NCBI RefSeq assembly: GCF_003664255.1
Contig: NZ_RCCV01000001.1
Span: 3,286,001 to 3,350,000 of the forward strand
Direction: 5' to 3'
Length of the DNA: 64,000 nt
From: Micromonospora sp. M71_S20
GTDB taxonomy: Bacteria > Actinomycetota > Actinomycetes > Mycobacteriales > Micromonosporaceae
This document shows, piece by piece, positions 25,901 to 28,900 of this stretch; the stretch's first letter is position 1, and every line of letters starts with the position of its first letter. The position numbers and the translations under genes were made by a program. The notes under the pieces were generated by a model. It ran no database searches, was not told the DNA's origin, and saw nothing but the letters and a program-made list of their open reading frames with translations.

Positions 25901-28900
25901 GCCTGCTCGTCGTCGCTGGTGGCGCTGCACCTTGCCGCGCAGGCGTTGCGCAGCGGTGAGTGCGATCTGGCGTTGGCCGGTGGCGTGACGGTGATGGCGA
26001 CGCCGGGCACGTTCATCGAGTTCTCGCGGCAGCGGGGCCTTTCCCAGGACGGCCGGTGCAAGTCGTTCGCCGCCTCCGCCGACGGCACCGGCTGGTCCGA
26101 GGGCGTCGGCGTGCTGCTCGTGCAGCGGCTCTCCGACGCCCAGCGGGAGGGCCGGCGGATCCACGCCGTCCTGCGCGGCACGGCCGTGAACCAGGACGGC
26201 GCGTCGAACGGCCTGACCGCCCCGAACGGCCCGTCGCAGCAGCGCGTGATCCGGCAGGCCCTCGCGAACGCCCGCCTGACCGCCGCCGACGTGGACGCGG
26301 TCGAGGCGCACGGCACGGGCACGACGCTCGGCGACCCGATCGAGGCGCAGGCGTTGTTGGCGACGTACGGGCAGGAGCGTCCGCAGGACCGGCCGCTGCT
26401 GCTCGGGTCGGTGAAGTCGAACATCGGGCACACGCAGGCCGCCGCCGGTGTGGCCGGTGTGATCAAGATGGTGCTGGCGATGCGGCACGGCCTGGTGCCG
26501 CCGACGCTGCACGTGGACGAGGCGTCGCCGCATGTGGACTGGGCCTCCGGGGCGGTGGCCCTCGCGACCGAGGCGACGCCGTGGCCGCAGGTGGACCGGC
26601 CGCGTCGGGCGGCGGTGTCGTCGTTCGGGATCTCCGGCACCAACGCCCATGTGATCATCGAGCAGCCGCCCGCCGAGGCGGCCGACGGGCGCGCCGCCGA
26701 CCGTCCGCGCGCCGGCGTCGTACCCCTGGTGCTCTCCGCCGTGGACGCCCCGGCGCTGCGCGACCAGGCGGCCCGGCTGGGCGCGCACCTGGCGGCGCAC
26801 CCGGAGCTGGAACCGGCCGACGTCGCCCACGCCCTGGTCACCACCCGGGCCGCGTTCGGACACCGCGCCGTCGTCCTCGGCCGCGACACCGTGGGCCTGA
26901 CGCGGGCACTGGAGTCGTTCCAGCTCGGCGAGGCCACCCCCGCCACGGTCACCGGCACCGCGCTGCGCGGCGGCGACCCGGTCCTCGTCTTCCCCGGCCA
27001 CGGCGACCCGTGGCCCGCCACGGCGGTCGAGCTACTGGACCGGTCGCCGGAGTTCGCCGCCGCGATCGCCGAGTGCGAGGCGGCCCTCGCACCCCACGTG
27101 GACTGGTCGCTCACCGCCGTGCTGCGCGGCGCGGACGGCGCCCCGACCCCGGCCGACCCCGGGGTGACGCACCCCGTCCGGTGGGCCGTGGCGGTCTCGC
27201 TGGCCCGCTGGTGGCGTTCGCTCGGCGTCCGGCCCGCCGCCGTGGTCGGGCACGCCCACGGCGAGGTCGCGGCCGCCTGCGTGGCCGGCGCGCTGTCGCT
27301 GGCGGACGCGGCGAAAACGATCGCCCTCGGCAGCCGGACCGAGGTGGACCCGGACGCGCTGACCGGGGTCACCCTCCGGGCGGCCGAGCTGCCGCTGTAC
27401 TCGGCGGCGACCGGCGGACGGGTCGACACCGACGGCCTCGACGTCGCCCGCTGGTACCGGGGACTGGCCGACGGCGTCGACGTCGACCCGGTCGTACGCG
27501 CCCTGCTCGACGAGGGCCACCAGATCCTCGTCGAGGCCGCCCCCGCGCCCGTGCTCGCCGCCGGGATGCGGGAGATCGCGCACGTCGCCGACGCCGTCGT
27601 GGTGGCCGCCGCCGACACCGACGCCGGCGGTTGGCTCCGGATGCTGACCGTCCTCGCCGGGCTGCACGTCCACGGCGTGCCCGTGGACTGGACGGCGATC
27701 CTGGGCGCCCGCACCGGCCCGCCGGTGCAGCTGCCGACGTACGCCTTCCAGCGCCAGCGCTACTGGCCGCAGGCGCCGGTGGCGACCGGCCCCGCCCTCG
27801 CCGGGGCCGACGAGACGGACCGGCACTTCTGGGAGGCCGTGGAGCGCGCCGACCCGCAGGCGTTGGCCGCCGCGATGCGGATCGACGAGACGGCGGCCCG
27901 GTCCCTCGACCCCGCGCTGCCGCTGCTCTCCTCGTGGCGCCGCCGCCGCCGCGACGAGTCCACGGTGGACTCGTGGCGGTACCGGGTGACCTGGAAGCCG
28001 GTCACGGTCGCGCCGGAGGCCACCCTCTCCGGCGCCTGGCTGCTGCTGGTGCCGGCCGCCGGCGCCGAGCAGCCCCTGGTCGACGGCGCCGCCCGGGCCC
28101 TCACCGAGGGCGGGGCAGAGGTCGTCCGGATCGACGTGACGGACCCGGACCGGCAGGCGCTGACCGACCGGCTGGCCCGTACCGGCGTCGCCCCCGGGGC
28201 CGTCGCCGGCGTGCTCTCCCTGCTCGGCCTGGACGACGCGCCGCACCCGACCCACCCGGTGGTGCCGGCGGGCCTCGCCGGCACGTACGCCCTGGTCCAG
28301 GCCCTCGGCGACGCCGGTGTCACCGCCCCGCTGTGGTGCGCCACCGCCGGCGCGGTCTCCACCGGCCGGGCCGACCCGCTCGACCGGCCCCGCCAGGCGA
28401 TGCTCTGGGGGCTCGGCCGGGTGGTCGCCCTGGAGCACCCGGACCGCTGGGGCGGCCTCGTGGACCTGCCCACCGAGCCGGACCCGCGGGACCGGGCCCG
28501 GCTCGTGGCGGTGCTGGCCGGCGTCGACGCCGAGGACCAGCTGGCGCTGCGCCCCTCCGGGGTGTTCGCCCGGCGACTGGTCCGGGCCCGCACCGACCGG
28601 ACGGCGACCGGCGACTGGCGTCCCGGAAGCGGCGCCGTCCTGGTCACCGGCGGCCTCGGGTCGATCGGGGCCCAGGTGGCGCGCTGGCTGGCCCGCGAGG
28701 GCGTCGGCGAGCTGGTGCTGACCGGCCGCCAGGGCCCCGCCACGCCCGGCGCCGACGAGCTGGCCGGCGAACTGCGCGCCGCCGGCGCCACCGTCACCGT
28801 GGCCGCCTGCGACGTCGCCGACCGCGACGCCGTGCGGGCCCTCGTCGAGCGGCTCGCCGGGCAGGGCACCCGCGTCGGGGCCGTGTTCCACACCGCCGGG

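Follow-up and report, generated by a model that had tools for sequence, protein, structure and literature searches.

A 64-kb stretch of DNA from Micromonospora sp. M71_S20 (G000:C1:3286001-3350000; hereafter the window, to which the coordinates below refer and on whose plus strand all domains located here lie) encodes part of a type I polyketide synthase (PKS) with 33 extension modules, and two of these, modules 21 and 19, carry an acyltransferase (AT) domain that lacks its small subdomain and its catalytic residues. This null-AT shape is real, conserved and recurrent among orthologous clusters of the genus. On the balance of the sequence evidence, we lean slightly towards the view that both modules have lost their own AT and still extend the chain, their acyl carrier proteins (ACPs) being charged by a neighbouring malonyl-type AT, probably with the loss of a methyl branch.

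The null acyltransferase of module 21

When the window is joined with the neighbouring stretches, the cluster comprises 13 PKS frames and 33 extension modules containing a ketosynthase (KS), the first frame having ~990 aa ahead of its ACP; modules 4, 6 and 11 of an initial annotation of the window correspond to modules 19, 21 and 26 of the whole line. That annotation had described the AT of its module 6 as reading GHAHGE instead of GHSxGE and as devoid of the small subdomain, and we find both statements to be correct. The GHAHGE motif of AT21 lies at 27248-27265, with the Ala codon at 27254-27256, and the Pfam profile Acyl_transf_1 aligns to AT21 only over profile positions 2-119 (26984-27340) and 206-317 (27359-27679), leaving out positions 120-205, which correspond to the small subdomain and the catalytic-His YASH loop of the intact orthologues. 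Likewise, the spacing from AGALSL to PLYSA is 35 residues in AT21 versus 118 in all five intact orthologues for which it was determined. No His motif of the YASH/HAFH type was found in the AT21 or AT19 region, and both domains thus lack the catalytic Ser, the small subdomain and the His of an active cis-AT.

The remainder of module 21 is in order. KS21 (25394..26665, from phmmer and a motif scan) retains its TACSSS, EAHGTG and KSNIGH motifs and is followed by the KS-AT linker domain (LD; 26666..26977, delimited by alignment boundaries and an AlphaFold model), the N-terminal remnant of the AT21 large subdomain with GHAHGE (large-N; 26978..27337), the junction that marks the lost small subdomain and catalytic-His loop (27338..27388), the surviving C-terminal part of the large subdomain (large-C; 27389..27607) and the post-AT linker (27626..27769). 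Downstream lie the PKS_DE segment with the structural part of the ketoreductase KR21 (27818..28630), the KR21 catalytic domain (28631..29164) with its Ser/Tyr/Asn/Lys set complete, and ACP21 (29489..29689) with an intact GFDS. The KR21 catalytic set is complete in all 26 sequences compared, 13 of which come from lineages with a truncated AT21. A dead AT is therefore found beside an intact KS and ACP in one module, as in the irumamycin AT12 case discussed below. As judged from its sequence, AT21 is gone as an enzyme, in a module that is otherwise complete and constrained; the claim that the KS, KR and ACP of this module are intact, which had been taken to argue for its use, is borne out by complete motifs and by the dN/dS values given below.

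AlphaFold models aligned to the Lsd14 and DEBS KS-AT structures place a large alpha/beta subdomain joined to the KS through the linker domain, and the AT21 remnant is modelled as folded with confidence. The predicted retention of the large subdomain and of its KS-AT linker interface agrees with what the initial annotation had expected, with the proviso that the input alignments consist mostly of intact ATs and may favour an intact-fold result. In one orthologue (G154, locus L145) the AT21 remnant carries a repeat-like insertion of the GPDDRQA type that looks like drift.

A second null acyltransferase of separate descent in module 19

Module 19 consists of KS19 (14680..15927), the null AT19 with its linker, large-subdomain remnant and post-AT linker (15928..17091), a dehydratase (DH19; 17149..18027) with intact motifs, KR19 (18634..19167) with a His at the catalytic Tyr position, and ACP19 (19492..19689) with GFDS. 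AT19 reads GDGDGE at 16525-16542 and misses the same part as AT21. All other modules of the cluster (31/33) have a full-length AT with Ser and His, the His of module 9 being present as FAAH.

Within the cluster, the surviving part of AT21 is most similar to AT02 (47.2%), followed by AT09 (46.1%), AT26 (45.7%) and AT19 (42.1%), so that AT21 is indeed closer to the AT of the former module 11 (AT26) than to the module 4 remnant (AT19), as had been proposed, by a small margin and with AT02 and AT09 closer still. The nearest relative of AT19 within the cluster is AT31 (62%). A tree of all 33 cluster ATs with orthologous AT19 and AT21 sequences (254 columns) puts the two null ATs into separate methylmalonyl-type lineages: the AT21 sequences form one clade with their intact orthologues, and null AT19 groups with intact AT19 and other methylmalonyl-type ATs. 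The proposal that the two come from different lineages is therefore upheld, and sister copies from one event were not found.

Truncation recurs in the genus at the same two modules

We surveyed 160 genomes of the genus and obtained 27 matches at the AT21 site (25 matches in 151 genomes in a first pass), 14 of them intact and 13 truncated (our strain, G094, G025, G086, G130, G021, G063, G019, G098, G071, G096, G137 and G154). AT19 was readable in 24 genomes (it was not reached in G098, G023 and G156) and is null in 11 and intact in 13. Alignments to ten other genomes of the genus, four of them single-contig assemblies, run through the gap at 59-89% identity and cover 13-383 or more of the 385 query residues, and null lineages diverge from our strain by 11-41% in the AT21 region. 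Ten of the 11 gap-spanning null matches lie in frames of 4,887-4,970 aa that no internal stop interrupts; the eleventh frame, of 2,982 aa, is at a contig end.

We then took a census of 225 modules in seven clusters (ours, G137, G096 and G130 with 33 each, G149 with 32, G011 with 31 and G154 with 30), in which truncated ATs occupy nine of the 14 sites 19 and 21 versus none of the 211 other sites. The clusters were partly picked for a truncated AT21, so that 9/14 is not a frequency; the 0/211 is unaffected by this choice. In 212 of these modules, Ser and His lie 99-106 residues apart, and four further ATs are full-length, namely that of our module 9 (with FAAH) and those of modules 4-6 in G149 (with insertions).

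Number and order of the excisions

A backbone tree of KS20, AT20, DH20, KR20 and KS22 from 24 genomes (5436 columns, midpoint-rooted) separates clade I (11 genomes) from clade II (13) with a support of 100. AT19 is null in all members of clade I and intact in all members of clade II; AT21 is truncated in all of clade I except G011, and it is also truncated in two genomes inside clade II, G137, which groups with four intact genomes at support 100, and G154, which lies outside that group. Taken alone, this tree implies one loss of AT19 and three losses of AT21. Recombination can, however, move AT21 sequences between lineages. The AT protein tree gathers the truncated AT21 forms into one weakly supported ladder (70-81), and an AT21 DNA tree (26 taxa, 996 columns) places G137 and G154 among the intact forms. 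In approximately unbiased (AU) tests, run with 5000 resamplings (too few by the program's own warning), neither a forced single clade of truncated AT21 (p 0.09) nor a grouping of G154 with the main group (p 0.47) was rejected. A common excision for all truncated AT21 forms was set aside on the breakpoints of G137: G137 misses residues that the others keep and retains the HASH loop that most others have lost, and because these breakpoints do not fit a shared event, we count G137 as a separate excision.

Thus, AT19 was lost at least once and AT21 was firmly excised at least twice, most likely three times, which amounts to at least three, most likely four, separate excisions at the two sites. G096 was not counted as a further one; its AT21 is nearer to clade II than to clade I, but it shares the KR21 His described below. 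In G011, AT21 falls inside clade II and KS21 is closer to clade I in 4/7 windows, which suggests that this genome took in an intact AT21 by recombination.

At the Ser position, the 13 truncated AT21 forms have Ala in nine cases, Gly in one (G071) and the original Ser in three (G130, G096 and G137), and all 27 full-length ATs found at these sites (14 AT21, 13 AT19) retain it. Since truncated forms with Ser exist and full-length ATs without it do not, excision appears to come first and drift of the Ser later, and excision thus tends to precede loss of the nucleophile. We infer the same order for the line of our own strain, where an early Ala with a return to Ser in G130 needs equally many changes. 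Four residues ahead of the KR21 Tyr, at what we take not to be the A2 marker position, 11 lineages with a truncated AT21 have a His, namely the ten of clade I and G098, which the backbone tree does not include; the remaining 15 sequences carry Leu or Phe there. A switch of KR21 stereotype linked to truncation does not follow from this, as G137 and G154 are truncated yet keep Leu.

The remnant is relaxed and the module is constrained

We estimated dN/dS by the pairwise NG86 method from non-independent pairs, for module 21 among nine null genomes (36 pairs) versus eleven intact ones (55 pairs) and for module 19 from 28 null pairs. Intervals were derived with 15-40 resamplings on the basis of six genomes per group (five for module 17). 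Excluding pairs whose dS fell outside 0-2 left 35-36/36 and 26-28/28 null pairs and 55/55 intact pairs; G071, G096, G011, G137 and G154 are in neither group. The AT21 remnant is elevated in null versus intact genomes, both in large-N (0.52 versus 0.14; intervals 0.34-0.78 versus 0.10-0.22) and in large-C (0.80 versus 0.30; 0.47-1.06 versus 0.12-0.49), and so is the LD (0.71 versus 0.47), in contrast to the post-AT linker (0.27 versus 0.28). The remaining domains of the module do not follow this trend, with 0.08 versus 0.11 for KS21, 0.20 versus 0.31 for KR21 and 0.115 versus 0.21 for ACP21. Large-N of the intact AT20 and AT22 gave 0.11 and 0.19 in null genomes and 0.31 and 0.28 in intact genomes. 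In module 19, AT19 large-N (0.40 versus 0.22) and large-C (0.75 versus 0.35) are likewise raised, the post-AT linker stands at 1.35 (at a mean dS of only 0.05) versus 0.28, and KR19 and ACP19 are at 0.21 versus 0.18 and 0.03 versus 0.29, respectively. Simulated neutral evolution yields a dN/dS of 1.1-1.6 at an equilibrium G+C of 0.72-0.93, fourfold sites showing 0.96. As the AT21 remnant lies above the intact lineages and below simulated neutrality, it is relaxed but not free, and it reads as the slow decay of a dispensable enzyme in a working module, in which the fold and the linkers still matter somewhat. Separately, KS21 has a mean dS of 0.475 in the null group, ~3x the value for most domains around it, and this KS may therefore have undergone gene conversion or recombination.

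A proposed shared malonyl-type acyltransferase and its alternatives

Modules 19 and 21 would each once have held a methylmalonyl-type AT, from which, as comparison with intact orthologues shows, a deletion took out the small ferredoxin-like subdomain together with the catalytic-His loop. In several lines, drift would have replaced the Ser by Ala or Gly, on most readings later than the excision, and the large subdomain and both linkers would persist as a predicted folded, relaxed spacer between KS and KR. The orphaned ACPs would be charged by another AT. Both ATs flanking AT21 and the one beside module 19 are full-length malonyl types (HAFH), and the likeliest candidates are AT20 (21707..22681) or AT22 (31358..32314) for ACP21 and AT18 (11650..12618) for ACP19, each encoded on the same polypeptide as the module it would serve. 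The expected outcome is a hydrogen in place of a methyl branch at both positions, with chain length unchanged. A malonyl AT of the same polypeptide is proposed as the loader because no stand-alone AT gene was found in the cluster, where every AT-family match sits inside a PKS frame. Among the 66 AT-family matches in the genome, two are in frames of <500 aa; the 397-aa frame was rejected as a free-standing loader, being a fragment of a frame-broken PKS, and the 415-aa frame on contig C3 or a 929-aa frame on contig C4 may encode a loader outside the cluster. A PKS with several frame changes, either a true pseudogene or the product of sequencing errors, is seen ~170-180 kb upstream of the cluster (L016, G000:C1:3010001-3030000, positions 4922-19283). 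More tentatively, and with a little less than even confidence, we propose that methyl branches are edited at fixed stations in this family of assembly lines, through repeated small-subdomain excision from two methylmalonyl-type ATs, with neighbouring malonyl-type ATs serving the orphaned ACPs, successive stages still visible among extant species and an intact AT21 apparently imported by G011.

The main rival is that modules 19 and 21 are bypassed, the chain passing through KS and ACP unextended and the ATs having been lost as unneeded. We regard this as unlikely, though it deserves serious weight. It would be in keeping with the lack of a stand-alone AT gene in the cluster, with the null ATs of other genera, whose KS-AT0-ACP modules have no KR and resemble pass-through modules, and with KR17 (about 8347-8745), a degenerate domain (19-41 bits in 18/23 lineages where it is readable, in both clades; Tyr motif missing in the nine sequences examined) that shows how, in this line, the structure of a domain can outlast the use of its activity. 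KR21 speaks against bypass, as its catalytic residues are complete regardless of the state of AT21 and its dN/dS in null genomes is not above that in intact ones; the complete Ser/Tyr/Asn/Lys set distinguishes it from KR17, whose motif is lost. Ring size bears on module 19: a lactone closed on the hydroxyl from module k has a ring of 70-2k atoms, which gives the 60 atoms published for quinolidomicin (60-membered ring, 34 modules and 154 domains in the part of PMC9054317 available) at k=5 with all later modules extending, or at k=4 with one module skipped, and this arithmetic would favour extension by module 19 in the published producer. Several observations count against continued extension through a shared AT. 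The ring-size argument fails at k=4, which is possible since DH4 keeps HPALLDA and a variant H-motif. Because KR17 is degenerate yet still constrained (0.29 and 0.39), a low dN/dS of KR21 alone is no proof of its activity. KR19 has His at the catalytic Tyr position (HAAAN) in 24/24 aligned sequences, in null and intact lineages alike, and hence lends no support to the use of module 19, a point that bypass can also claim. Values for short domains are noisy, as the AT19 post-AT linker and a value of 0.73 for the AT22 post-AT linker in the same null genomes illustrate. Finally, in the auroramycin work excerpted from PMC6943886, methylmalonyl was accepted as well by one of the complemented modules, though the yield was low.

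The initial annotation had instead seen convergent trimming that keeps a scaffold between KS and KR. The convergence stands, the same subdomain having been removed repeatedly; the further idea, that the trimmed AT was itself selected and that loss of small subdomain and nucleophile was adaptive, for instance for docking of an ACP or another AT, we consider improbable. The dN/dS of the N-terminal remnant (0.50, interval 0.34-0.78) below its simulated neutral range of 1.1-1.5, the unrelaxed post-AT linker of module 21 and the confident folded model would suit such selection. Truncated forms with Ser exist, however, no full-length AT at the two sites lacks it, the large-subdomain remnant is clearly relaxed, and a clean excision may merely be the deletion that the protein tolerates, the AT small subdomain being an insertion in the AT fold. 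The same annotation had held that random pseudogene decay would not give this pattern; its interpretation is borne out in part, and the selected scaffold is not supported in the form proposed. That the null ATs mark the early pseudogene decay of a dying module or assembly line is very improbable: the relaxed remnant and the frame-broken PKS elsewhere in the genome would fit, but frames are open in 10/11 gap-spanning null matches across lineages 11-41% diverged, KS, KR and ACP are constrained, and, in the seven clusters, only two stations out of 33 are hit by truncation. Repetitive PKS DNA is easily misassembled, but an assembly artefact can be dismissed for practical purposes, since the same shape occurs with diverged sequence in ten other genomes, four of them single-contig, and a collapsed repeat does not produce base changes in the Ser codon.

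If continued extension with a borrowed AT is correct, the genus holds natural snapshots of a transition from cis to shared AT, with excised forms that keep Ser followed by forms in which Ser is replaced. In such a natural, replicated series, modules shed the enzyme that loads them yet continue to be used, which opens three questions to testing: whether an ACP in a cis-AT line can be served by the AT of a different module, what sets apart the stations at which AT loss is tolerated, and whether, for engineering, small-subdomain excision inactivates an AT more cleanly than a Ser-to-Ala exchange.

Comparison with known systems

The closest known relative is the quinolidomicin PKS of Micromonospora (qnmA1-A13; Table 3 of PMC8698034, from which this comparison is drawn), which matches our cluster in its 33 extension modules and domain order. 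Our cluster follows this order with 33 modules on 13 frames, some of the DH and enoylreductase (ER) assignments resting on partial scans and the system being known here from its genes alone. In that antiSMASH-made table, AK-AN57 has no AT in module 19 and M. okii TP-A0468 has none in module 21, and other entries have ATmm at modules 19 and 21; M71_S20 differs from these orthologues in lacking an active AT at both sites. The orthologues in the table differ from each other at just these sites, and an AT remnant may be read as ATmm or as no AT in tables of this kind. The remnant, its excision, the order of loss and its recurrence at modules 19 and 21 are not described in the portion of PMC8698034 at hand.

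The initial annotation had suggested looking for the same shape in other giant PKS clusters, and besides the orthologues in the genus we found it in Actinomadura violacea (L019) with GDGIGE, in G330, from another genus of the family, with GDGPGE (18/300 genomes passed the search) and, with Ser kept, in one genus of the class (G513 and G369; 18/394 genomes passed the search). These searches give lower bounds, with 4-6 candidates scored per genome and, in the search that yielded A. violacea, the AT sequence inspected at 8/77 loci. All four cases belong to a KS-AT0-ACP module without KR, and we consider them parallels only, not the same system, as the module types are different. In A. violacea (L019:10001-16704), the KS-null-AT-ACP module stands at the end of a PKS polypeptide and is followed by a nonribosomal peptide synthetase (NRPS) frame of condensation, adenylation and peptidyl carrier protein domains (C-A-PCP).

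Trans-AT PKSs such as that of bacillaene also have modules that extend without a built-in AT. Our line differs from them in being cis-AT, with the large AT subdomain almost whole, no stand-alone AT seen in the cluster and a full-length AT in 31 of its 33 modules. In auroramycin, AT-null modules were rescued by the disorazole AT in trans, and the module of AT10 gave malonyl and methylmalonyl products at low yield, according to the available text of PMC6943886; the likeness lies in a knocked-out AT and an ACP charged in trans, the difference in a man-made system with a foreign AT added. Module 12 of the irumamycin PKS is a natural counterpart in a cis-AT line, with an inactive methylmalonyl-type AT12 whose Ser is replaced, and its authors propose malonyl extension with AT11 serving T12 and AT12 being structural only (PMC11672594, as far as the consulted sections go). 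There, AT12 shows a Ser-to-Gly change and poor motifs, and neither small-subdomain excision nor repeated loss at a fixed site in orthologues is reported in those sections of PMC11672594. We found no report of recurrent AT loss at fixed modules among the listings of open-licence PMC literature. Inactive cis-ATs in working modules are thus known. The new element in M71_S20 and its relatives is that excision has recurred at two particular stations of one giant line and that its stages can still be seen in extant species.
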